Origin: a virus
Length of the DNA: 32,134 nucleotides
Reading direction: 5' to 3' (one strand)
IMG/VR virus record: IMGVR_UViG_3300024265_000157
Span: 1-32,134 of that record
Below, one piece after another: positions 7,717 to 31,976 of the stretch. The translations under genes and the position numbers were made by a program. Under the pieces are notes generated by a model. That model ran no database searches, was not told the origin of the DNA, and saw only the letters and a program-made list of their open reading frames with translations. Positions within the stretch are counted from its first letter, which is position 1; each line of letters starts with the position of its first letter.

Positions 7717-8456
7717 TCACTACCCCCCTTGGTAGGAGTCACGTTCAGCATGCCCCTGGCCCGCAGGAGTTCCCTGGCAGCCTCTAGTAACTGGTTATCG
7801 TCGTCCCTGATATGCACGTGTAGCTGTTGGGCCACAACGGCCTCCCCCTTCATATCCAATGCCGTCTGCTCCAAGTCCGCCCCCACCTTGGCCAGGTCTA
7901 GTATCTCCTTAATGGTGAGTACGGTCTTGGTCTCTGCAGTGGTTTCCCCAGTAGTTGGGTCCACGCGCTCAACAGTCAAGGTAGTCTGGACGTACTTCAA
8001 AGCAGTGGCTGCCTTGCGTCGCATGTCGGTGCCCAGTATCGCAGTCTCTCTGCGGGCCTTAACCCGCTCCGCCAAGAGTGCGCCCCTGAAGAACTCATCC
8101 TGGTACCTATCGTGCTCTATAACCCGGTCTTTCCATCCGAATCGCTGTGCGATGTTATAAAGCCAGTGCATCACTGGCTCCCCAGTAACACTCGCAATCG
8201 CCGGCTCTGGAAAGAAGTGCAGGTAGACGTTCTTGATGGTCCTGTCGAACGCCGGCATATCCCTGTAGTGTTGGAAGTAGGCCCAGTCCTTGTCACTCTC
8301 TTCTGGCTGGCGCTCCCACAGGTCTAGTCCTACTTGGTAGGTAATGGGACCACCTGTAGGGGTGGCGGCCACGAGCTGACCCTCAATGACCAGAACCTCT
8401 GGCTCTGGCTCCTCCACCACGGGGTCGTTCCATTGGGGCTTACTAGTCCTGGCCAC
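7713..8456 (-). CDS. Terminase small subunit candidate
   Basis: A 247-residue protein immediately upstream of the large terminase (4-base overlap). The segment WERQPEESDKDWAYFQHYRDM (residues 47-67) has the W-ERQ-ES--A---F--YR form seen in many phage small terminases and related DNA-binding packaging proteins, followed by a helical region with GWKDRVIEHDRYQDEF. These proteins recognise the packaging site and regulate the motor. No clear helix-turn-helix could be proved by eye. The start is GTG at 8456-8454, with GTGAGG 7 bases upstream; it overlaps the preceding gene by 14 bases. Confidence 0.65.
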   Translation of the reverse strand: MARTSKPQWNDPVVEEPEPEVLVIEGQLVAATPTGGPITYQVGLDLWERQPEESDKDWAYFQHYRDMPAFDRTIKNVYLHFFPEPAIASVTGEPVMHWLYNIAQRFGWKDRVIEHDRYQDEFFRGALLAERVKARRETAILGTDMRRKAATALKYVQTTLTVERVDPTTGETTAETKTVLTIKEILDLAKVGADLEQTALDMKGEAVVAQQLHVHIRDDDNQLLEAARELLRARGMLNVTPTKGGSE

Positions 8457-8688
8457 GAAGCCTCACCAACTGTACCTCTATCCCCACCCCCGATGCACAG
8501 CCCCCGAAACTGTGTGCGCGTAAGTGCAGGCGCTCCCGGTGGATGATGGGGTCAAGGGGCTGGGCAGCCCAACGCTCTGCGCCCTCGTGGGGACCATAGA
8601 GCTCTGGGACAATCCCTACAATGACGGCTTCTCTCGTGACTATGGTTATACGCTCTCCTGGTTGGCAAATCTCGTTTAGGTCTAACAT
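8443..8688 (-). CDS. Small protein, first gene of the minus-strand operon
   Basis: An 81-residue protein I do not recognise. It begins MLDLNEICQPGERITIV and looks like a small beta-rich domain (RITIVTREAVIVGIVPEL). The start at 8688 is supported twice: a Shine-Dalgarno stretch (AGAAGAGGGG) lies upstream, and the predicted transcription start of the minus promoter (near 8726) falls between it and the alternative in-frame ATG at 8742, which therefore cannot be on the message. It is the first gene of the structural operon and overlaps the small terminase candidate. Confidence 0.6.
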   Translation of the reverse strand: MLDLNEICQPGERITIVTREAVIVGIVPELYGPHEGAERWAAQPLDPIIHRERLHLRAHSFGGCASGVGIEVQLVRLRGQD

Positions 8689-8732
8689 AGTTATGGGCCC
8701 CCTCTTCTGGCGGTTCTGGTTTCTTTCCTTTA

Positions 8733-8773
8733 AGTATACCATATTCAGTATGTGTTAGTCCAGACCCTGCAGT
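8733..8773 (-). promoter_or_regulatory. Promoter of the structural (minus-strand) operon, phage element family
   Basis: Read on the minus strand: ACTGCAGGGTC, then the -35 box TGGACT (8762-8757), an 18-base spacer and the -10 box TATACT (8738-8733) followed by TAA. The ACTGC box lies at the same distance before the -35 box as in the plus-strand promoters at 10393, 11923, 13904, 15799 and 20117. Transcription would start near 8726, giving a 38-base leader before the gene at 8688. Confidence 0.7.
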
Positions 8774-8898
8774 CGGAGCAGTTAGTTATGTTTCCATACT
8801 AGGTACCTCTGGTATTGTTGTGGGTGAAGTGAGCCCTAGGGTTCTATCATGGCATTACGTAAAATATCAAGAGGGGGTAGACTCGTCTCTTTTACCCC

Positions 8899-8927
8899 TT
8901 TACTTTTTCGCGAAAATCGAGTATACT
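8899..8927 (+). promoter_or_regulatory. Sigma70-like promoter of the 9025 gene
   Basis: TTTACT (8899-8904), a 17-base spacer and TATACT (8922-8927), followed by ATATCTAGG. It lacks the TACTGC and CCAATC boxes of the other promoters, so it should not need the factor that reads those boxes. The predicted start is near 8934, with a leader of about 90 bases. Confidence 0.7.
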
Positions 8928-9024: not shown

Positions 9025-9432
9025 ATGACGACCTCAACGAAAAAGACGACGGTGACGATTATCGAGAAGTCGATTCGGAACGATAGGGCCAGTGATGACG
9101 ACCCATTCGCTAACCTCACTGCCGAACGATTCGCTACCTTCAACGGAATCAAAGACTCCCGCCCCCTGCTCGGGGTAGCCCACGACCTTTATGTAAGGCA
9201 GTTACTTCACGCCGGCCGGATTGAAGGGGTGAAAGTCCAGTTAAAGGGCTATACGAAATGGTTTATCGACCCCGCTAGCATAGCCTACTATACGGCTAAT
9301 AAAGCGCGGAGGAGCGGACTGAGACGGTATCTCTTACGGGCGAATAGTACGGATGAAGCCGCTATTCGGGACGCTCTAGACGCTACGGGAATCGAGTATA
9401 CCTTAGAGATCAGCTATAAGAAAAAAAAGTAA
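9025..9432 (+). CDS. Helix-turn-helix DNA-binding protein, paralogue A
   Basis: A 135-residue basic protein. Residues 48-90 read as an excisionase/MerR-type winged helix: LLGVAHDLYVRQLLHAGRI (helix-turn-helix), then a strand pair with KGYTKWFIDPASIAYY. It is followed by ARRSGLRRYLLR (95-105) and a YKKKK end. The gene at 14070 has the same order (GIAHAQYVRQLV, VWAINPTTVESY, TRSGLRRYLLR, YKKK), so the two are paralogues. Its codons are unlike most of the window: many ACG, TCG, CGA and CGG. It has its own promoter lacking the phage element and a structured leader. Likely a DNA-binding regulator or nucleoid-type protein; its target is unknown. The acidic tail of paralogue B is absent. Confidence 0.7.
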   Translation: MTTSTKKTTVTIIEKSIRNDRASDDDPFANLTAERFATFNGIKDSRPLLGVAHDLYVRQLLHAGRIEGVKVQLKGYTKWFIDPASIAYYTANKARRSGLRRYLLRANSTDEAAIRDALDATGIEYTLEISYKKKK

Positions 9433-9927: not shown

Positions 9928-10046
9928 CCCCGGCATACGATGAACACCCCCTGCAACCCAGTTAGTGTTGGATGGACACTAACCCCCACACCCACTACGC
10001 GAAATGGCTACGCGAAATACCGCAGCAGGAGCGTCTCCCTTGCCCA

Positions 10047-10354
10047 TGATACTCTATGATACCACCTGCCCATGATACTCTATGATACCCTGTAGTCCCC
10101 CTATGATCACTTCTGGCCATGATACTTTATGATACCCTGTAGTCCCCCCGTGATACTCTATGATGACCACTCCCCTACTCTTCTTATAGTGATCAGGGGA
10201 GTGGTCATCACTGACCATATTATAACGTTAACCGTGGCCACGCCAGAAAAAATATTTTTTTCCTGTGGTAACATTAACGTTAACGTTACCATCGCATCCT
10301 TGCCTCTGCTGCCCTTGACCCCTTACCCCTACTACCCATGATACTCTATGATAC
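10047..10354 (+). repeat. Five copies of TGATACTCTATGATAC
   Basis: Copies start at 10047, 10073, 10120 (one C-to-T change), 10151 (last two bases differ) and 10339. Each copy is itself TGATAC twice at a 10-base distance, about one helical turn, which suggests a dimeric protein binding one face of DNA. The second and third copies are both followed by CCTGTAGTCCCCC, so a unit of about 45 bases was duplicated. Confidence 0.85.
10161..10210. repeat. Perfect 16-base inverted repeat
   Basis: TGATGACCACTCCCCT (10161-10176) and AGGGGAGTGGTCATCA (10195-10210) are exact complements around an 18-base centre. The left arm begins inside the fourth TGATAC repeat. No T-run follows, which argues against a terminator. 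It could form a cruciform or an RNA hairpin, or bind protein. Confidence 0.85.
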
Positions 10355-10363
10355 GCTGCCTCC

Positions 10364-10422
10364 CCAATCCGAGTTTGGTATACTGCCGTGTCTTGACTTT
10401 TGTCCCTCTGTTAGGTTATACT
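10364..10422 (+). promoter_or_regulatory. Promoter of the 10481 gene, phage element family
   Basis: CCAATC at 10364, TACTGC at 10381, -35 box TTGACT (10393-10398), an 18-base spacer and -10 box TATACT (10417-10422). Predicted start near 10429. Confidence 0.8.
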
Positions 10423-11303: not shown

Positions 11304-11365
11304 GTACCCTCACGATATTCTACGAAGACTGTATGGTCAGTGAACGTAGAATATCATGGGGGTAC
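11304..11365 (+). repeat. Imperfect 21-base inverted repeat with a competing short hairpin
   Basis: The left arm 11304-11324 and the right arm 11345-11365 pair over 21 positions with one mismatch and one G-T pair; the core GATATTCTACG/CGTAGAATATC is exact. The left arm also takes part in a small GGGT-GGT-ACCC hairpin just before it, so the two forms exclude each other. No T-run follows. It sits in the untranslated spacer between the genes at 10937 and 11463. Confidence 0.75.
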
Positions 11366-11893: not shown

Positions 11894-11951
11894 CCAATCT
11901 AGATTGGCCATACTACAGCTTCTTGACTTACCACTAGTTCTGGGGTATACT
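11894..11951 (+). promoter_or_regulatory. Promoter of the 12033 gene, phage element family
   Basis: The palindrome CCAATCTAGATTGG (11894-11907), TACTAC (11911), -35 box TTGACT (11923-11928), a 17-base spacer and -10 box TATACT (11946-11951), followed by TAACCTAGGGGGG. The best-formed member of the family; predicted start near 11958. Confidence 0.85.
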
Positions 11952-12506: not shown

Positions 12507-12531
12507 AACCAACCAACCAACCAACCAACCA
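12507..12531 (+). repeat. Tetranucleotide repeat (AACC) in the leader of the 12554 gene
   Basis: Six units of CAAC/AACC type lie 10 bases before the ribosome site AAAGGAGAC. The run is free of structure, like the repeats before the genes at 14800 and 32042. Confidence 0.8.
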
Positions 12532-13443: not shown

Positions 13444-13887
13444 ATGCACCTGTATCAAGTATGCGCAGTATTTGCTGATGGAATACGTTATATAGCTGTA
13501 GAGGCAGACACCGCTCAAGAGGCAAAGGCACGAACTGCCTCAGCCTACTCAGGCGACGATGCATTCTACTATGTTGAAGATGGTCGGGTTATTGAGCCAA
13601 TGGATGCCCTCCTCACGAAAGAGGATCACCCCTTGCCTGGGAGGACTCGCCACCCCACCTTTCCACACCACCATACCCCTGCCCTGCCCCCCTACCCTAC
13701 TCCCCCAGCACCTAGCCTAACCAAGGAGGAGATTGCTTCCATTCATAGGGCATTGAACTGCCAGTATTACTACCTGGAACGGTCTCTCTCCATCTCCACA
13801 TCGTCCACCAACTGCCTCAGCTATAAGGCAGACCTTGCTGCCATTAGGAAACTCCGAGACGCCCTCTGGCACCTCCAATCTAAATAG
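13444..13887 (+). CDS. Unknown two-domain protein, 147 residues
   Basis: Residues 1-60 (MHLYQVCAVFADGIRYIAVE, AQEAKARTASAY) form a small alpha/beta domain like those seen in short phage proteins that sense or bind partners. A Pro/His-rich linker (residues 66-97) leads to a helical C-terminus (LTKEEIASIHRALNCQYYYL, ADLAAIRKLRDALWHL). The ribosome site AAAGGAT lies 8 bases before the ATG, 5 bases after the preceding stop. Its last codons contain the CCAATC box of the next promoter. Confidence 0.6.
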   Translation: MHLYQVCAVFADGIRYIAVEADTAQEAKARTASAYSGDDAFYYVEDGRVIEPMDALLTKEDHPLPGRTRHPTFPHHHTPALPPYPTPPAPSLTKEEIASIHRALNCQYYYLERSLSISTSSTNCLSYKADLAAIRKLRDALWHLQSK

Positions 13888-13933
13888 GCCATACTGCAGG
13901 GTCTGGACCCCGTGCCTACCTATAGGGTATACT
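13875..13933 (+). promoter_or_regulatory. Promoter of the 14070 gene, phage element family
   Basis: CCAATCTA (13875) lies in the end of the preceding gene; TACTGC at 13892, -35 box TGGACC (13904-13909), an 18-base spacer and -10 box TATACT (13928-13933), then TAATCTAGGGGGG. The weaker -35 box suggests greater need for an activator. The leader of about 130 bases is long. Confidence 0.75.
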
Positions 13934-14069: not shown

Positions 14070-14576
14070 ATGCCAAGGAAAGAATTCCCATCCCAGTACG
14101 CTGGTTGGTATCGAATCGCCACTGCAGCCCCAACGATGGGCATTGCCCATGCGCAGTACGTTCGCCAACTGGTCCAGAAAAAGTTCCAACACGAAGACAT
14201 CGTCAACCCGAACACGGGCAACGTGGAGAAGGGCGCCGTCAAGATTGACATGGGCAGCTACCAGGTGTGGGCGATCAACCCCACGACCGTCGAGAGCTAC
14301 CAGACACGCCAGACGACTCGCAGCGGCTTGCGCCGGTATCTTCTCCGCTTTGACTCCAGTGTCATCGAACCAGCAGCCCTTGAGGTCGTCATCCGCCAGG
14401 CCATCGCCACTGCCATCGGCATCGAGCCCGCCGCCCTCACAGCAGAGAACTTCAGCTTTGAGCCTGCCTACAAGAAAAAGGCGAAAAAGCCAGGGAGCAG
14501 CACCAGCGCCATTGATCCATTGGAAATCAGCGACTCTAGCGCCATCGAATTGGACTTTCTAGACGCCTCAGAGTAG
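14070..14576 (+). CDS. Helix-turn-helix DNA-binding protein, paralogue B, with acidic tail
   Basis: A 168-residue protein that aligns with the 9025 protein: GIAHAQYVRQLV (24-35), VWAINPTTVESY (66-77), TRSGLRRYLLR (83-93) and AYKKK (133-137). Compared with A it has an insert (NPNTGNVEKGAV, 46-57) and a C-terminal acidic tail (IDPLEISDSSAIELDFLDAS). The tail resembles the protein-binding tails of ssDNA-binding or regulatory proteins; this is an analogy only. Codons are strongly C-ending, unlike most genes here and unlike paralogue A, which suggests high expression. It has its own promoter of the phage element family and a long leader with CACCTAA repeats; a structured 3' region follows. Confidence 0.7.
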   Translation: MPRKEFPSQYAGWYRIATAAPTMGIAHAQYVRQLVQKKFQHEDIVNPNTGNVEKGAVKIDMGSYQVWAINPTTVESYQTRQTTRSGLRRYLLRFDSSVIEPAALEVVIRQAIATAIGIEPAALTAENFSFEPAYKKKAKKPGSSTSAIDPLEISDSSAIELDFLDASE

Positions 14577-14696: not shown

Positions 14697-14706
14697 TCCC
14701 TTATCA

Positions 14707-14774
14707 CCTAACCTAACCACCTAACTACCTAACTACCTAACTACCTAACCACCTAACCTAACCACCTAACCTAA
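14707..14774 (+). repeat. Ten copies of CCTAA in the leader of the 14800 gene
   Basis: CCTAA occurs ten times in 68 bases, partly as an 8-base period (CTACCTAA). It ends shortly before the ribosome site GAAAGGAAAG. It has no G and cannot fold on itself, so it keeps the leader open. Confidence 0.9.
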
Positions 14775-14799
14775 CCTAGCACCTGAAAGGAAAGAAAGA

Positions 14800-15241: not shown

Positions 15242-15798
15242 CGTTTCCCCCCCCCTCCCCAAGAAGCACCTGTAGTCTATAAGATATACAAAATATGATC
15301 TTTGGGTCTCGGGGTAATACCGTCTACTAGAGGCTTTAGGTAATTACGTTTTTACTTCTTCATCTTCTCGTACTTACCTATAAAAATATAGATATATAAT
15401 TATTTAATATATATTATTATTATAGTACTCTTTAACTCTTCTGGACCCTCTTTAACCTGCCTCCTTAATCAAAGACATACGTTAATTCCGACTATAAAGT
15501 ATAATTATAAGACTTGAAACGAGACGATTGCCCCCCTATAATTATAATCCCCGCAGGCTTCTCCACCCCTCTGGCCCCTCCAAAAGGCCCCCCTCTAGGA
15601 CCTCCCCAGGGCCCTCTAGAGGCCCCCCAGGGCACCCCTCTAGGACCCTCCCAGGCACCCCCCACCCCTTCACCCTCCAAGACACGCACTCCCCTCTAGC
15701 CCCTGTGCAGGGAGGACCCACTCCTGGTACCTAGAACTTAATCCTCCAAACCCCGCTGGCCGCCCCCCTTCAATCTAACTCGGTCCGCCTGCCCAGTC
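15242..15798. other. Gene-free AT-rich and C-rich region
   Basis: No supported gene in about 550 bases. The left part (15280-15520) is AT-rich, most strongly around 15375-15430 (runs of ATATAT, TTATTATTA). The right part (15531-15760) is one of the most C-rich on this strand and contains three degenerate units of about 22-24 bases built on CTCTAGG/CTCTAGA (about 15590-15660). The semi-palindrome TATAATTATAA occurs at 15500, 15537 and, in the next promoter, at 15822. A proline-rich frame through the C-rich part lacks a ribosome site. An origin or other structural role is possible. Confidence 0.5.
15590..15660 (+). repeat. Three degenerate CTCTAGG-containing units
   Basis: CCCCTCTAGGACC, CCCTCTAGAGGCCC and CCCCTCTAGGACCC follow one another at 22-25 base steps, each followed by C-rich sequence with CCCAGG. 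The middle unit is a CTCTAGAG palindrome. Confidence 0.6.
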
Positions 15799-15827
15799 TT
15801 GACTTATCGTTCGTTATGGGTTATAAT
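15771..15827 (+). promoter_or_regulatory. Promoter of the 15876-20124 operon, phage element family
   Basis: CAATCTA (15771), CTGC (15789), -35 box TTGACT (15799-15804), a 17-base spacer and -10 box TATAAT (15822-15827): the closest to consensus of all. Predicted start near 15834. An ATG at 15816 lies between the two boxes and so cannot start translation from this message. Confidence 0.85.
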
Positions 15828-15875
15828 TATAACCAGGGGAAGGAGATACCTATCCCCATCAGAAAGGATGAGAAC

Positions 15876-16166
15876 TTGATCCCTAAAGAAGTACGCGACA
15901 GGATAGTGGTTACTAAATACCGACAAGGTGCGTCCATAGCAGAGATTATGGCTGCTGCCTCAGTTCGCTGCCCCAACACCCTCTATACGGTATTGAGGGC
16001 TCATTCCATCCCACTACGCCGGCCACGGGACGCAGATAGCTTGGATGCTCTAGTTGGCCCCCTCACCCACTTGCTATTTGAAGAGGGATTGGAGCCAGAA
16101 GAGGCAGCCAAGCAACTGGGGCAGCCGCTCCCACGGATCATGCAAGTCATAGAAGAGAGGTTATAA
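15876..16166 (+). CDS. Small helix-turn-helix-like protein, 96 residues
   Basis: I place the start at the TTG at 15876, with AGAAAGGA 7 bases upstream, because the longer frame begins upstream of the predicted transcription start. Residues 4-45 (PKEVRDRIVVTKYRQGASIA to LYTVLRAHSIP) follow the pattern of a resolvase or transposase-type helix-turn-helix (RDRIV-KY-QG-SI-EI, then a recognition-helix-like segment). A second similar helical repeat follows (LLFEEGLEPEEAAKQLGQPL). Likely a DNA-binding regulator at the head of the operon. Function unknown beyond this. Confidence 0.6.
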   Translation: MIPKEVRDRIVVTKYRQGASIAEIMAAASVRCPNTLYTVLRAHSIPLRRPRDADSLDALVGPLTHLLFEEGLEPEEAAKQLGQPLPRIMQVIEERL

Positions 16167-19816: not shown

Positions 19817-20124
19817 AAGCAATCACCAAGCTGCGCACACGTGATATTGGCCTGTGCCGTCTGGAAGACGGAACCGTGGCACTGTATGCCGAAACCGGCA
19901 ATGAGACCTATTTCTATCCTATGGAGAAGTGGTCAGACCCTTACCTTTTAGAGCTAACGCAGTACCTCATCCTCAAGTATGGAGAAGCAACGAGTCCTTA
20001 CCTGGCATTCTTGAAGAAGCAGCAAATAGATATCCAGGAGAGCTTCTTCGATGAGGATGGTAAGCTCCTGCGTGAGAAGGTCATAGTGGCAGTAGATTCT
20101 TACATACTGCAGGGTCTTGACTAA
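19813..20124 (+). CDS. Unknown protein, 103 residues, last gene of the operon
   Basis: Starts MKAITKLRTRDIGLCRLEDG; a small beta domain, then helical (YLLELTQYLILKYGEATSPY). Its last codons (YILQGLD) are encoded by the TACTGC box and the -35 box of the next promoter, so this promoter was built into, or has captured, the gene's end. Confidence 0.55.
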   Translation: MKAITKLRTRDIGLCRLEDGTVALYAETGNETYFYPMEKWSDPYLLELTQYLILKYGEATSPYLAFLKKQQIDIQESFFDEDGKLLREKVIVAVDSYILQGLD

Positions 20125-20146
20125 ACGCCTGTTGATAGTATATAAT
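20105..20146 (+). promoter_or_regulatory. Promoter of the 20191 gene, phage element family
   Basis: TACTGC (20105), -35 box TTGACT (20117-20122), an 18-base spacer and -10 box TATAAT (20141-20146). The CCAATC box is not found at its usual place. Predicted start near 20153. Confidence 0.8.
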
Positions 20147-20190: not shown

Positions 20191-20529
20191 ATGACCATGG
20201 CAGTAGCGGCGCTGGTTAAAGGGGACAGCCTATGGGTAGTCCAAATACCCTCGGCAGATATCTATACCATCCAAGAGGTGTCTAGGATACTTGGTACGGC
20301 TGCCCCTATGGTCTATGGATACATCAACAAGGGCAAATTACCTGCCTATATCCTAGACGGGGTCAAGCATGTTAAGCATTCTGACTTGGTCTCCTTTGCC
20401 GCCCGTCGTAGGCAGTTGCGCCGGTCTATAGGTGCCAAGATTAAGCCCCAAAGGATTGTACCTCACCAGAAGGGGGATCCCTCTATCCGTAAAGACTTTA
20501 GTATCCCACTAGAATATGTAGACGAGTAG
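20191..20529 (+). CDS. Helix-turn-helix (excisionase/MerR-like) regulator
   Basis: A 112-residue protein. Residues 24-66 (IYTIQEVSRILGTAAPMVYG, then YINKGKLPAYILDGVKHVKH) fit the HTH_17 excisionase fold: helix, turn, recognition helix, then a wing hairpin and a final helix (SDLVSFAARRRQLRR), rich in Arg. Such proteins act as repressors, activators or directionality factors. It is alone between a strong promoter and a strong terminator, so it is probably made in a regulated burst. AGGGGAT lies 10 bases before the ATG; the ATG at 20197 is an alternative. Confidence 0.75.
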   Translation: MTMAVAALVKGDSLWVVQIPSADIYTIQEVSRILGTAAPMVYGYINKGKLPAYILDGVKHVKHSDLVSFAARRRQLRRSIGAKIKPQRIVPHQKGDPSIRKDFSIPLEYVDE

Positions 20530-21343: not shown

Positions 21344-22752
21344 ATAGGACACCCTATCCATACCAAGAAGACGGAGTCAAGTTCTTACAAGAGCATAAAG
21401 GTGGATTCTTACTAGATGAGCCTGGTCTGGGTAAGACCTACCAGGCCATCCTGGCTGCCAGTGAAATGGGGCGGCATATCCTTATCATTTGCCCTAACAG
21501 TCTTAAAGCCTGGTGGAAGAAAGAGATCAAGGCAGTGCTTGGGCAGGAGGAGAAGGTACTAACTGCTGGAGTAGGTGGCCGGTTCAAGTACGATGCTGAC
21601 GGCAAGCGGTTGGAATTCGAGATGCGTCTTACATCCTTGAACAGTCGGCACCTCATCCCCAAATGGACCATCGTCCACTATGCAGGAATTCGCATTCAAG
21701 TGGAAGAGTTCAGTAAGCTCCCTTGGGATGTAGTGGTTGTAGACGAGTGCCACTTTATCAAGAACAGGAAGACCAAGCGAGCTATAGCCGTCAAGAAGGT
21801 TACTCCTGAAGGGGCAATCCGAATTGGGGCAACGGCTACTCCCTTCAGTAAGAACCCAGCCGATTGGTGGTCCCAGCTAGAGTGGATGGCCCCAAGCAGG
21901 AATAACTGGCGCTCCTATTGGAAGTTCTATGAGATGTTTGTAGACTATACTATGGAGCAGGGCGACTATGGTAGATACCGCAAAGTTAAGGGCGGCAAGA
22001 ACCTAGACCTCCTGGCCAGGGTAATGGCTAACTACTCCATTCGCAGGACCAAGAAGGTCGTAGCCCCGCAGATACCGCCACTCGTGGATACATACCTTCC
22101 ACTGGAGTTGGAGGGCAGGCAAGAGGTCATCTATAAGAAGCTCAAGAAGGCAGAGGCTGAGGCCCACATCATAGATTCGTCATCAGGTGAAAATAAGCGT
22201 GTCCTGATGGTGAATGTTCTGGCCCGTCTTACTCGACTGGAGCAATGCCTTTCTCATCCTTGGACGTTAGACGGCACGGTTAAGGGGGCAAAGCTGAAGT
22301 GGCTCATGGAATGGAAAGAGGGGTATAAGTACCCTGCAGTTATTGCTACCAAGTATAAGCCAACTGCCAAGTATATCGCTACACTCTTGAGGACTCGTGC
22401 TATAACTGGGGACGTCTCTGTCCGCACACGCCAGGAACTACAGAGTGCGTGGGAAGCGGGGGAGCAGCAGTTCCTGGTGGGCACCATTCATACTATTGGG
22501 ACGGGATTGAACCTGGGTAAGGCTCATACCATAGTCCTGTTCGACCAGGTATACAGCCCCATCCTTATGGACCAGGTACGACAACGGATACACCGCCTTA
22601 CTACTGACCATCCAGTAGAGGCGATTTACTTATATATTCAGAAGACCACCAACGACTTGGTACTCAAGAGCTTTCAAAAGGCTTGGAATACGATGGAACT
22701 AGTCCGGTCTATGGTGGAAGAGTTAACTGGAAGGAGAAATGCAGATGGCTAA
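21340..22752 (+). CDS. SNF2/DEAD-type superfamily 2 helicase
   Basis: A 470-residue protein. Motif I: LLDEPGLGKT (24-33); motif II: VVVDECHFIKN (132-142), a DECH box; motif III: GATATP (163-168); motif V/VI: GTIHTIGTGLNLGKAHTIVL and DQVRQRIHRLT near the C-terminus. This is the SNF2-like translocase layout seen in phage helicases, acting on duplex or branched DNA. The start at 21340 overlaps the preceding stop (ATGA); the frame extends to 21319 without a ribosome site. Confidence 0.9.
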   Translation: MNRTPYPYQEDGVKFLQEHKGGFLLDEPGLGKTYQAILAASEMGRHILIICPNSLKAWWKKEIKAVLGQEEKVLTAGVGGRFKYDADGKRLEFEMRLTSLNSRHLIPKWTIVHYAGIRIQVEEFSKLPWDVVVVDECHFIKNRKTKRAIAVKKVTPEGAIRIGATATPFSKNPADWWSQLEWMAPSRNNWRSYWKFYEMFVDYTMEQGDYGRYRKVKGGKNLDLLARVMANYSIRRTKKVVAPQIPPLVDTYLPLELEGRQEVIYKKLKKAEAEAHIIDSSSGENKRVLMVNVLARLTRLEQCLSHPWTLDGTVKGAKLKWLMEWKEGYKYPAVIATKYKPTAKYIATLLRTRAITGDVSVRTRQELQSAWEAGEQQFLVGTIHTIGTGLNLGKAHTIVLFDQVYSPILMDQVRQRIHRLTTDHPVEAIYLYIQKTTNDLVLKSFQKAWNTMELVRSMVEELTGRRNADG

Positions 22753-23281
22753 AAGGCTATCCACGGGTAAGCCCATTTCTGAGCTCACTGATGAGGAGAA
22801 GAAGGAGCTTGGGCAGCAGATGATGCCGATGATGGGGGAACCCCTTGCCCTGCTGGGTCCACGGCCATGCCAGGCCAGCCTGGAAGAGCTGATTACAACC
22901 GGGCATAGGGCAGAAGAGGCTGTTCGAGCCGAGTGCAGGGCAATAGCAGCGCGGCATCCCTATATGGAGATCCAGGTGAACCATTCCTTTGAAGCCGCGC
23001 ATCGACTGCCTGGACATACGGGTAAGTGCGAGCGGCTTCATGGGCACTCCTATCGGGTACGGGTGATGCTCAAGGGGCTGGTCCGAGAGGATGGTATGGT
23101 CATCGACTTTGGCCATGTTAAGGACGTCCTTGACCAGTTGGACCATCGGTACCTGAATGACTTCATGGAGAACCCTACCGCAGAGCATACCGCCCAGTGG
23201 TTGCTGGAGCGTATCCCATTGGCAACTGCCGTCCACGTATGGGAAGGGTTAGGAGGAGGCAGCGTTGTCGCCAGAATATAA
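22745..23281 (+). CDS. queD: QueD, 6-carboxytetrahydropterin synthase, with N-terminal extension
   Basis: Second step of the preQ0 route: dihydroneopterin triphosphate to 6-carboxytetrahydropterin. Residues 74-178 are a full QueD domain: FEAAHRL (His 86), CERLHGH (Cys 95 catalytic, His 99 and His 101 zinc), VIDFGHVKDVL, LDHRYLND (Asp 133, His 134), PTAEH and VHVWEG (Glu 167). The first 73 residues are a helical, acidic-then-basic extension unlike ordinary QueD proteins of about 120 residues. The start at 22745 has AAGGAG 8 bases upstream; the ATG at 22739 would be only 2 bases from it. Overlaps the helicase and QueE genes. Confidence 0.9.
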   Translation: MAKRLSTGKPISELTDEEKKELGQQMMPMMGEPLALLGPRPCQASLEELITTGHRAEEAVRAECRAIAARHPYMEIQVNHSFEAAHRLPGHTGKCERLHGHSYRVRVMLKGLVREDGMVIDFGHVKDVLDQLDHRYLNDFMENPTAEHTAQWLLERIPLATAVHVWEGLGGGSVVARI

Positions 23282-23873
23282 GATCAATCAGATATTCAGG
23301 TCCATCCAAGGGGAAGGAGCCTTCACCGGCTGGCCGGCCCTCTTTGTCCGGTTCCAGGGATGTAATCTCGACTGCCCCTTTTGCGATACCAAGGACGCCA
23401 TCCCTGCAAACGGGGGAAGTATCCTCCCCCTAGAAAAACTGGTGAAGGCGATAGTATTGCTGGCTCATCCTCATGACCTTATCGTCTTCACTGGAGGGGA
23501 ACCAACTCTACAACCCCTGGACACGCTAGTGGAAGCGCTACTCCTCAAGGGCGACTGGGCTATACATTTGGAGACTAATGGCACTCAGCCTGTCCCCTGG
23601 GACATAGACTGGATAACCCTGTCCCCCAAGCTGCCTGCTCCCGTGTTCAAGGCCAACGTCTATAGAGCCAACGAGATCAAGTGGCTGGTGAGGGAGGAAG
23701 GGGATGTCGACGCACTACGGAAGTGGATAGAGCCATTTGGCCTGCCGCCTGCAGTAGTCGCCGTACAGCCTATATCCCAAGGCAACCAGGCCACTCGTAT
23801 AGCCTATGAAGCATCTATGAAATACGGGTTCAGGTTCTCTGTCCAAGTTCACAAGTACGTAGGAGTACAATAA
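23265..23873 (+). CDS. queE: QueE, 7-carboxy-7-deazaguanine synthase (radical SAM)
   Basis: Converts 6-carboxytetrahydropterin to 7-carboxy-7-deazaguanine. A 202-residue protein starting at TTG (23265) with AGGAGGAG upstream. The radical-SAM cluster is GCNLDCPFCDT (Cys 33, 37, 40, a C-x3-C-x2-C form), preceded by SIQGEGAFTGWPALFVRFQG; FTGGEP at 75-80 is the SAM-binding motif, and LETNG follows at about 106. Size and motifs match QueE. It overlaps QueD by 17 bases and FolE by one, so the three are coupled. Confidence 0.93.
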   Translation: MSPEYKINQIFRSIQGEGAFTGWPALFVRFQGCNLDCPFCDTKDAIPANGGSILPLEKLVKAIVLLAHPHDLIVFTGGEPTLQPLDTLVEALLLKGDWAIHLETNGTQPVPWDIDWITLSPKLPAPVFKANVYRANEIKWLVREEGDVDALRKWIEPFGLPPAVVAVQPISQGNQATRIAYEASMKYGFRFSVQVHKYVGVQ

Positions 23874-24466
23874 TGAATGGATTCCAGTTTCATGATAAGC
23901 CAGACCAAGGAGCAGGGTTGGATAGATGCAAGATAGCCAAGCTCATTCGCGATCTCATTATGGCCCTGGGCGATGACGTCGCCAGGGAAGGACTCAAGGA
24001 TACCCCTATGAGGGTAGCCAAGCTCTGGGAGGGGTTCATCAACTACGACCCTGGTACGATAGAGACTAGCTTCTCTACTGAGTCTGTCAACCAGCTTACC
24101 ATCCTAAGGGTTAACGATGTGTGGTCGATGTGTGAGCACCACCTACTCCCGTTCTGTATGAACATAGTCATAGGGTATCTGGCCCGTGGAAAGTTCTTGG
24201 GAGCGTCCAAGTTCGCCAGGGTATGCTATAAGCACGCCCATAGACTCCAGATACAGGAGCGGTTTGTAGAGGGAGTGGCTGACGAGATTCAAGCACTGAC
24301 AGGCTCTCCAGACGTGGCCGTCTATGCAGTAGGTAGGCATACTTGTATGGAGAGTAGGGGGGTCAGGAACAGTGGCCCTATGATTACGTCCGTTATGAGG
24401 GGGATATTCTTAGCCAATCCAGTAGCCAGGATGGAGTTCCTGGAACTATCTGGGAGGACGGAATAG
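23873..24466 (+). CDS. folE: FolE, GTP cyclohydrolase I
   Basis: Converts GTP to dihydroneopterin triphosphate, the entry step of the preQ0 route. A 197-residue protein with the family's core: GLKDTPMRVAKLWEGF (40-55), MCEHHLLPF (86-94, zinc ligands Cys 87 and His 90), GASKFARV (110-117), RLQIQERF (124-131) and AVGRHTCMESRGV (152-164, zinc ligand Cys 158). Length agrees with bacterial FolE without a long N-terminus. The ATG overlaps the QueE stop (TAATG). Confidence 0.95.
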   Translation: MNGFQFHDKPDQGAGLDRCKIAKLIRDLIMALGDDVAREGLKDTPMRVAKLWEGFINYDPGTIETSFSTESVNQLTILRVNDVWSMCEHHLLPFCMNIVIGYLARGKFLGASKFARVCYKHAHRLQIQERFVEGVADEIQALTGSPDVAVYAVGRHTCMESRGVRNSGPMITSVMRGIFLANPVARMEFLELSGRTE

Positions 24467-30646: not shown

Positions 30647-31261
30647 ATGCCATTCATAAAGGTTGACTTTAATGGAATAAAACCCAAGTTCACGCGTCCA
30701 GACCTACTACAGCACCCTAGCATCCCCAAGTACCTAGCGGGGGTGAACCCCAGGAGGATTATGGGGCGGGAATGGTGGGACGCCCACCGACGAGTTGTCT
30801 ATGAAAGGAATAACTATCATTGCTTTGCCTGTGGAATCTCTGCTGCTGAGGCGCCTATCCATCAATGGCTAGAGGCCCATGAGTGCTATGATTATATGTG
30901 GGAGGAGAAGATACTCAGGTACAGGGAGACCGTGGCCCTTTGCTATAGATGTCATAACTTCATCCATAGTGGCAGACTGTACAATGTTTACCTAGATGGT
31001 AAGGTCACTACGGAAGAGCTACTGAGTGTGCTCCTTCACGGGTTTAAGGTACTTCATAAGGCAAGGCTAGTACCCAGTCAAAAAGCCGTAGAAGTTGCCA
31101 AGGTAGCTAGGGGGGCTCCTGCAGACTATCTTATATACCATGGTATCCAAGCAAGCGACGACTCCGTATGGCATGCAGTAGGCTTATTAGATATGGGATG
31201 GGTCCTGGCTTTTCAGGACAAGAGGTACAATTTCCTTGGAAAGGAGATAGTAGATGAATGA
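30647..31261 (+). CDS. HNH endonuclease-like protein
   Basis: A 204-residue protein. Residues 48-110 carry an HNH pattern: RRVVYERNNYHCFACG (Cys 59, 62), WLEAHECYDY (His 78) and ALCYRCHNFIHSGR (Cys 99, 102, His 103 and His 107). The two CxxC pairs should hold a structural zinc ion. The C-terminal 90 residues are not recognised. It lies between MazG and QueC and may act on DNA that lacks the phage's modified base, or nick it for packaging or transfer; no evidence here decides this. The ATG follows the MazG stop directly. Confidence 0.75.
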   Translation: MPFIKVDFNGIKPKFTRPDLLQHPSIPKYLAGVNPRRIMGREWWDAHRRVVYERNNYHCFACGISAAEAPIHQWLEAHECYDYMWEEKILRYRETVALCYRCHNFIHSGRLYNVYLDGKVTTEELLSVLLHGFKVLHKARLVPSQKAVEVAKVARGAPADYLIYHGIQASDDSVWHAVGLLDMGWVLAFQDKRYNFLGKEIVDE

Positions 31262-31976
31262 CGCCGTAGTTTTACTCAGTGGGGGAATGGACTCCACGAC
31301 AGCCCTATATTGGGCAATCAAGCAGAAGCATATAAGGGTGGCAGCCACTGTCCACTTCACCTATGGTCAGTTAGGCAGTGAATGGGAATTCGCTGCTGCT
31401 GGGCAAGTTAATGTCCGTGCCAGCGATAAGGCAGGATATCCTATTCCTTTGCACCACATCATCCTACCCATGAAGCAGTACAGTCTTTTACAATGGGAGA
31501 ATGCGGACCTGTCCCCTGGACGAAAGGATAGTCATGGTAAACCCTCTACCTTTGTCCCTGGGAGAAACCTCATACAGCTCGCTATGGTCCTACCTATTGC
31601 CTATACCTGCGATGCTGGTCTCATTGTAGGAGGGTGGAACCAGATAGACGTGGACTACCCGGACTGCAGGAGGGGGTTCTTAGAGAGTGCCGCTATTACT
31701 CTTGGCTTGGCCCTTGAGGAGCCAATAGATATCGTCTATCCCCTCATAGACATGGCCAAGAAGGAGATCGTTGCTCTCGGCACGCGCCTGGAGGTACCAT
31801 GGAGCCTTACCCGTAGTTGCTACAGTTCGGATAAGGCCCCTTGTGGAGTGTGCGACTCTTGCCTATTGAGGGTAGCAGCCTTTCACCAGAATGGGATGAC
31901 CGACCCTGCGTATCGTACATTGGAGGGGTGGATCAGTGCCAAAGCCACTGCCTTTGAGCAGGATTATCTTTCATGA
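31254..31976 (+). CDS. queC: QueC, 7-cyano-7-deazaguanine (preQ0) synthase
   Basis: Last step to preQ0: turns the carboxyl group of 7-carboxy-7-deazaguanine into a nitrile, using ATP and ammonia. A 240-residue protein with the PP-loop VVLLSGGMDSTTALYW (5-20), VPGRNLIQLAMVLP, YPDCRRGFLESA (135-146) and the zinc site SCYSSDKAPCGVCDSC (Cys 189, 197, 200, 203). No amidotransferase (Gat) domain is fused. It completes the FolE-QueD-QueE set 7 kb upstream on the same strand. The ATG overlaps the HNH stop. Confidence 0.95.
   Translation: MNDAVVLLSGGMDSTTALYWAIKQKHIRVAATVHFTYGQLGSEWEFAAAGQVNVRASDKAGYPIPLHHIILPMKQYSLLQWENADLSPGRKDSHGKPSTFVPGRNLIQLAMVLPIAYTCDAGLIVGGWNQIDVDYPDCRRGFLESAAITLGLALEEPIDIVYPLIDMAKKEIVALGTRLEVPWSLTRSCYSSDKAPCGVCDSCLLRVAAFHQNGMTDPAYRTLEGWISAKATAFEQDYLS

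Follow-up and report, generated by a model that had tools for sequence, protein, structure and literature searches.

A Promoter Family with a Shared Putative Regulatory Site Abutting the -35 Box in an Uncultured Bacterial Virus

Introduction

What does a sequence element held at a fixed distance from the -35 box of six promoters do for the virus that carries it, and which protein reads it? The question arises from a virus record of 32,134 bases (IMG/VR IMGVR_UViG_3300024265_000157), analysed here over its full length and called the window. A sequence-only reading of this DNA had described six promoters with two extra boxes, one of TACTGC type and one of CCAATC type, and had taken the arrangement as a site for a phage-encoded activator or sigma-binding protein that touches RNA polymerase, read on both arms of the genome. 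Drawn from nothing but sequence and checked in a related phage, the analysis presented here amounts to a transcription map of an uncultured phage lineage without a close isolate; it also singles out a few proteins and sites for a direct test of a phage transcription switch.

The Phage and Its Relatives

Leftward genes of the window start at about 8.7 kb and include those for the small and large terminase; rightward genes run from 9.0 kb, beginning with small genes and continuing to helicase, exonuclease, primase, and QueC. A second record (IMG/VR 3300028610_002108, hereafter G2) is the same phage, with 99.97% identity across 22.6 kb, and adds 6.8 kb to the right arm. A syntenic relative (IMG/VR 3300018080_000221, hereafter G1) has 54,147 bases arranged in two divergent arms and is complete by assembly, since it carries a 123-base end repeat; its proteins are mostly 25-78% identical to those of the window. 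Searches for isolate relatives returned no close phage record for the terminase, helicase, primase, and three candidate regulators, a host scan of about 85,000 genomes with the terminase profile returned no relative, and no tRNAs were found as a clue to the host.

In the complete G1, family searches for integrase, resolvase, HTH_3, and sigma region 4 domains all came back empty. With neither an integrase nor a CI-like repressor in G1, there is no sign of lysogeny, and a lysogeny-repressor reading is unsupported on the same grounds; the virus is probably lytic. Two regions (22739-24466 and 31254-31976) hold QueD-like, QueE, GTP cyclohydrolase, and QueC-like genes (QueE and GTP cyclohydrolase assigned through their G1 orthologs), which together make up a preQ0 synthesis set and therefore suggest 7-deazaguanine modification of the phage DNA.

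A 17-Base Block Shared by Six Promoters

Promoter A (10376..10422, plus strand) consists of an upstream block (10376-10392), a -35 box TTGACT (10393-10398), and a -10 box TATACT (10417-10422), and serves ORF 10481. Promoter B (11906..11951, plus strand; block 11906-11922, TTGACT 11923-11928, TATACT 11946-11951) serves ORF 12033, promoter C (13887..13933, plus strand; block 13887-13903, TGGACC 13904-13909, TATACT 13928-13933) serves ORF 14070, and promoter D (15782..15827, plus strand; block 15782-15798, TTGACT 15799-15804, TATAAT 15822-15827) serves the ORF starting at 15876. Promoter E (20100..20146, plus strand; block 20100-20116, TTGACT 20117-20122, TATAAT 20141-20146) lies inside the 3' end of ORF 19813 and serves ORF 20191 and the replication genes; promoter F (8733..8779, minus strand; block 8779-8763, TGGACT 8762-8757, TATACT 8738-8733) serves the left (terminase) arm. 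Two open reading frames as listed begin within these promoters: minus-strand ORF 8443-8742, whose start at 8742 falls inside promoter F and for which comparison with G1 suggests a start near 8688, and ORF 15816-16166, whose start at 15816 falls inside promoter D and whose likely start is 15876 (TTG).

All six promoters fit the sigma70 type, in which the hexamers are near TTGACA and TATAAT at 16-18 bases; the -10 box is TATACT or TATAAT at a spacer of 17 or 18 in every case, as previously read. The -35 box is TTGACT in four, the remaining two having TGGACC or TGGACT in place of TTGAC. Aligned on the -35 box, the consensus is GGcCATACTGCAGgGTC-TtGACT-N17/18-TATAmT.

The distance of 12 bases claimed between the TACTGC-type box and the -35 box checks at every pair of coordinates (10381/10393, 11911/11923, 13892/13904, 15787/15799, 20105/20117, and, on the minus strand, 8774/8762). 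The box holds its position but is not a separate element: it is really the left part of a 17-base block, CATACTGCAGGGTC, that combines it with the next six bases and touches the -35 box. Those six bases read AGGGTC in half of the promoters, with TC at -2/-1 in all six and G at -3 in five. Block positions -10, -9, -7, -2, and -1 are invariant, and -14, -11, -8, -5, and -3 agree in five of the six. Promoters C and F, in which the -35 box is weakened to TGGAC, each have an exact ACTGCAGGGTC, and a GTC-TK-GAC dyad, continuous with the block, lies over the -35 box in five window promoters.

A matrix scan of the window found the block nowhere outside the six promoters; a fixed-distance extra element thus occurs at several promoters and not elsewhere, as in promoter classes that carry a phage-activator site. 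With leave-one-out matrices spanning the block and the -35 box, each held-out site outscores every non-member among about 64,000 window positions, and the best non-member scores 11.3, versus 25.1-29.7 for the six members. The information in the block is 22.1 bits; 20,000 random sets of six positions, with the offset left free, reach no more than 14.4. Nearly all of the strongest sigma70-like sites in the window have the block. Judged by these sequence statistics, the six sites form a real promoter family with a shared putative regulatory site.

Not every member is an independent copy. Promoters B and C (copies 11894 and 13875) share 77% identity across 81 bp and so probably go back to one duplication, which brings the number of independent copies nearer to five than six. 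A TAA-CTAGG motif said to follow several promoters is present, but just in these two copies; restricted to probable duplicates, it is not independent evidence. One could extend the explanation suggested by this pair to the whole family, so that recent duplication of promoter pieces, with no shared factor, accounts for the likeness; however, spacer identity is near random for most pairs of copies (12-50%, one pair 69%) while the block persists, and G1, with proteins as diverged as noted above, retains equivalent promoters, so such an origin is very improbable.

Conservation and Drift in a Relative

The sequence-only reading had staked itself beforehand on conservation in relatives, and this was looked for and found: G1 has five promoters of the same plan, four before orthologous genes and one more loosely placed. 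They lie at 48175 (plus strand, left arm; orthologous to promoter F), 46331 (minus strand, before the 10481 ortholog; orthologous to promoter A), 44777 (minus strand, before the 14070 ortholog; orthologous to promoter C), 37410 (minus strand, before the 20191 ortholog; orthologous to promoter E), and 43248 (minus strand, near the 15876 ortholog; roughly equivalent to promoter D). Further sites, also expected on that reading, are limited to these five in the complete G1, and the extra 6.8 kb of G2 has none.

Applied to G1, the matrix of the window block placed two of the sites at the top and one lower, and two more were read upstream of orthologous genes. With a matrix trained on the five G1 promoters (block plus -35 box), the six sites of the window come out 1, 2, 3, 4, 5, and 8 among 64,224 positions; in simulated windows, the chance matches expected at those scores number 0.02 to 0.5 for five sites and 3.4 for the sixth. 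Taken without the -35 box, the block is only weakly kept between the two genomes (ranks 8 to 1075 of 64,236). In G1 the motif has drifted, most copies retaining GG near -17/-16, CTG near -10, and C at -1. Three G1 promoters have TTTACT as the -35 box, and four add a spacer element, CAGCCTG, which GCCTGTTGATAG in window promoter E (20117) resembles; the G1 promoter with TGGACT has a poor block. Such fast divergence of the site between relatives would allow study of the co-evolution of a regulator and its site.

G1 was the one match in a search for the G1-type promoter pattern, and no such promoters were seen in L051 and L052, which are more distant relatives by primase, or at other loci. A pattern match in IMGVR 3300025608_000258 (L010/G3) was rejected as chance, having one site and none of the related proteins. 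The strict promoter pattern occurs in 5 scattered contigs among about 85,000 genomes, approximately the estimated chance number, and none of these has several sites.

This distribution bears on whether the host itself reads the block, as an extended -35 element for a host sigma factor or as the site of a host activator, with no phage regulator involved. The presence of the block at nearly all of the strongest sigma70-like sites would fit, as would the sixth base of the -35 box, a T in nearly every promoter of the two phages, including one that lacks the block. However, that promoter, before gene 9025, is itself conserved; the two phages, of one lineage, differ in the motif; and the strict pattern, at about chance frequency among the scanned genomes, never occurs several times in one. 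We regard a host-read block as unlikely.

A Dyad That Marks a Subclass

The CCAATC-type boxes at 10364, 11894, 13875, and 15770 each lie 29 bases before the -35 box, in agreement with the earlier reading. They belong to dyads at promoters A (10364..10378, plus strand; CCAATCCGAGTTTGG, from the sequence and an information test), B (11894..11907, plus strand; CCAATCTAGATTGG), C (13875..13888, plus strand; CCAATCTAAATAGG), and D (15770..15783, plus strand; TCAATCTAACTCGG). The copy at 11894, correctly described before as a palindrome, is a perfect one and, as read from its letters, is an extreme copy of the dyad. Four of the six window promoters, two of them probable duplicates, therefore have the dyad, and promoters E and F are without it. 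Information in the CCAATC region of the four sites is 20.9 bits, versus at most 17.4 in 3,000 sets, in which the random sets chose four of six and the offset freely.

TTGG at the place of the dyad is kept in the G1 promoters at 46331, 44777, and 43248 and is missing from the left-arm and 20191 promoters in both genomes, a rough match of the subclass between the two; the G1 promoters do not retain the left half, CCAATC. Being promoter-specific in both genomes and without a conserved left half in G1, the 29-base dyad is a feature of a subclass.

Five CCCATGATACTCTATGATACC-type repeats lie at 10043-10363, along with a TTAACGTTAACGTTA palindrome at about 10266-10291; the last copy of the repeats (10335-10363) abuts the dyad of promoter A. 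The repeats were not seen in the equivalent part of G1 and are possibly an origin, a partition site, or an operator array.

Candidate Regulators

A promoter without the block (TTTACT-N17-TATACT; 8899..8927, plus strand) precedes gene 9025, which opens the right arm. It is conserved in G1 (TTTACT-N17-TATAAT at 48026-), and the block is absent from it in both genomes. Gene 9025 (9025..9432, plus strand) encodes a predicted winged helix-turn-helix (HTH) protein with a MerR/excisionase-like fold, a candidate regulator on the basis of its model, fold matches, paralog, and orthologs. The model has a mean pLDDT of 79.9, with the HTH and wing mostly at about 88-93. Of the viral proteins with a name that it matches by fold, nearly all are HTH, MerR-like, or excisionase proteins, though at E-values no better than 2e-3; a fold search of the PDB gave nothing significant.

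A paralog with 34% identity to the 9025 protein (14070..14576, plus strand) is found behind promoter C, and both genes have orthologs in G1. Two other proteins are also candidate binders of the block: a small predicted DNA-binding protein with a G1 ortholog (15876..16166, plus strand; PHROG 1303), directly behind promoter D, and an HTH_17 (MerR/excisionase-type) protein (20191..20529, plus strand; Pfam 9.5e-9, above cut-off), directly behind promoter E. The 9025 family has no significant profile match to the latter.

Between the two divergent promoters, at 8826-8885, the segments GTGAGCC..AGGGTT.TATCA and TTACGTAAAA..TCA.GA.GGGGTA are strongly conserved with G1; they lie upstream of the 9025 promoter and may be a second regulatory site.

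A Proposed Mechanism

The reading that we tentatively prefer, at something short of even confidence, is that these are sigma70-type promoters for the host polymerase whose shared 17-base site is bound by a phage DNA-binding protein (likely 9025/14070), which is probably an activator. Of the earlier proposal, the promoter family on both arms is borne out, as are its retention in G1 and the phage DNA-binding proteins nearby; the activator itself is putative. No match to sigma70 region 4 was found in the window or its relatives (G000, G001, and G002) by a search that a highly diverged copy would escape, and a phage sigma factor is for this reason disfavoured.

Transcription from sigma70 promoters starts about seven bases after the -10 box; assuming that start, the block spans roughly -53 to -37 and the centre of the dyad is near -58. 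At such places, activators make contact with sigma region 4 or the alpha C-terminal domains. Host polymerase alone would make the 9025 protein first, from the block-less promoter. This protein (and/or its paralog 14070) would next occupy the block, which directly adjoins the -35 box; four promoters offer a second site, partly palindromic, with its centre at about -58. Once bound, 9025 would touch sigma region 4 or the alpha subunit, and transcription would rise in the packaging arm, the operons of small genes, and the replication operon. That a protein binds, which protein it is, and that it activates are all points we infer from the sequence.

The exact ACTGCAGGGTC at both TGGAC promoters (two cases) is as expected if the block compensates for a weak -35 box. 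With most -35 and -10 boxes close to consensus, there is no obvious need for an activator, and the GTC-TK-GAC dyad over the -35 box means that an occluding repressor also fits. The block might then be an operator, at which a phage protein covering the -35 region shuts the promoters off and sets timing by repression. The near-consensus boxes, the way in which the block abuts or overlaps the -35 box, and the several small HTH proteins directly behind such promoters, as in autoregulation, are consistent with this possibility; nevertheless, off-promoter copies are absent, unlike in stoperator systems, G1 shows no sign of lysogeny, and two promoters pair a weakened -35 box with the best block. We consider an operator somewhat unlikely.

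The activator reading can be taken further: in a lytic lineage, a diverged winged-HTH protein made from the sole block-less promoter might assist host sigma as a general co-activator of almost all other phage promoters, those of the packaging and of the replication arm included, and its site abutting the -35 box might evolve fast between relatives, one of which gained a spacer element. We judge this combination, taken as a whole, unlikely.

Comparison with Known Systems

At several promoters controlled by lambda CII, activator repeats adjoin the -35 region, and TTGC repeats flank a poor -35 box. The window family resembles these promoters in having putative activator repeats by the -35 box at several promoters, but it has no TTGC repeats.

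T4 middle promoters use a MotA box together with AsiA in sigma appropriation; the box, centred at -30, takes the place of the -35 box (PMC2988021). There, as in the window, a class of promoters for host polymerase is set apart by a phage-specific element next to a sigma70 -10 box; in contrast, the window promoters keep a -35 box, with the element directly upstream of it, and hence are not MotA promoters. Late promoters of phage Mu are activated by C from a site upstream of the -35 region, and these serve late genes only (PMC4461284). An activator site in this place, with one phage protein for several promoters, is what we propose for the window; compared by description, the two differ in that the window block serves packaging, small-gene, and replication operons. 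The temperate phage L5 has more than 20 operator/stoperator sites, many of them away from promoters (PMC9283540). Like the block, these are asymmetric, phage-specific, of similar length, and oriented with transcription; however, all six window sites are at promoters, and lysogeny genes were not found. Having no copies off promoters, the window family differs from the L5 stoperators.

No described promoter of this exact layout was found in the literature, which is no proof of absence. By analogy, the window family most likely works like known promoter classes with a phage activator site near the -35 box, such as the T4 middle and Mu late promoters.

Other Features

Short tandem AACC and CCACCTAAC/CTACCTAAC runs (12507-12530 and 14701-14790) are found shortly before ribosome-binding sites, and G1 also has an ACCC run before a gene. 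A 28-base inverted repeat with a 6-base loop and 82% complementarity lies between genes (11304-11365); it is possibly a terminator or a processing hairpin.
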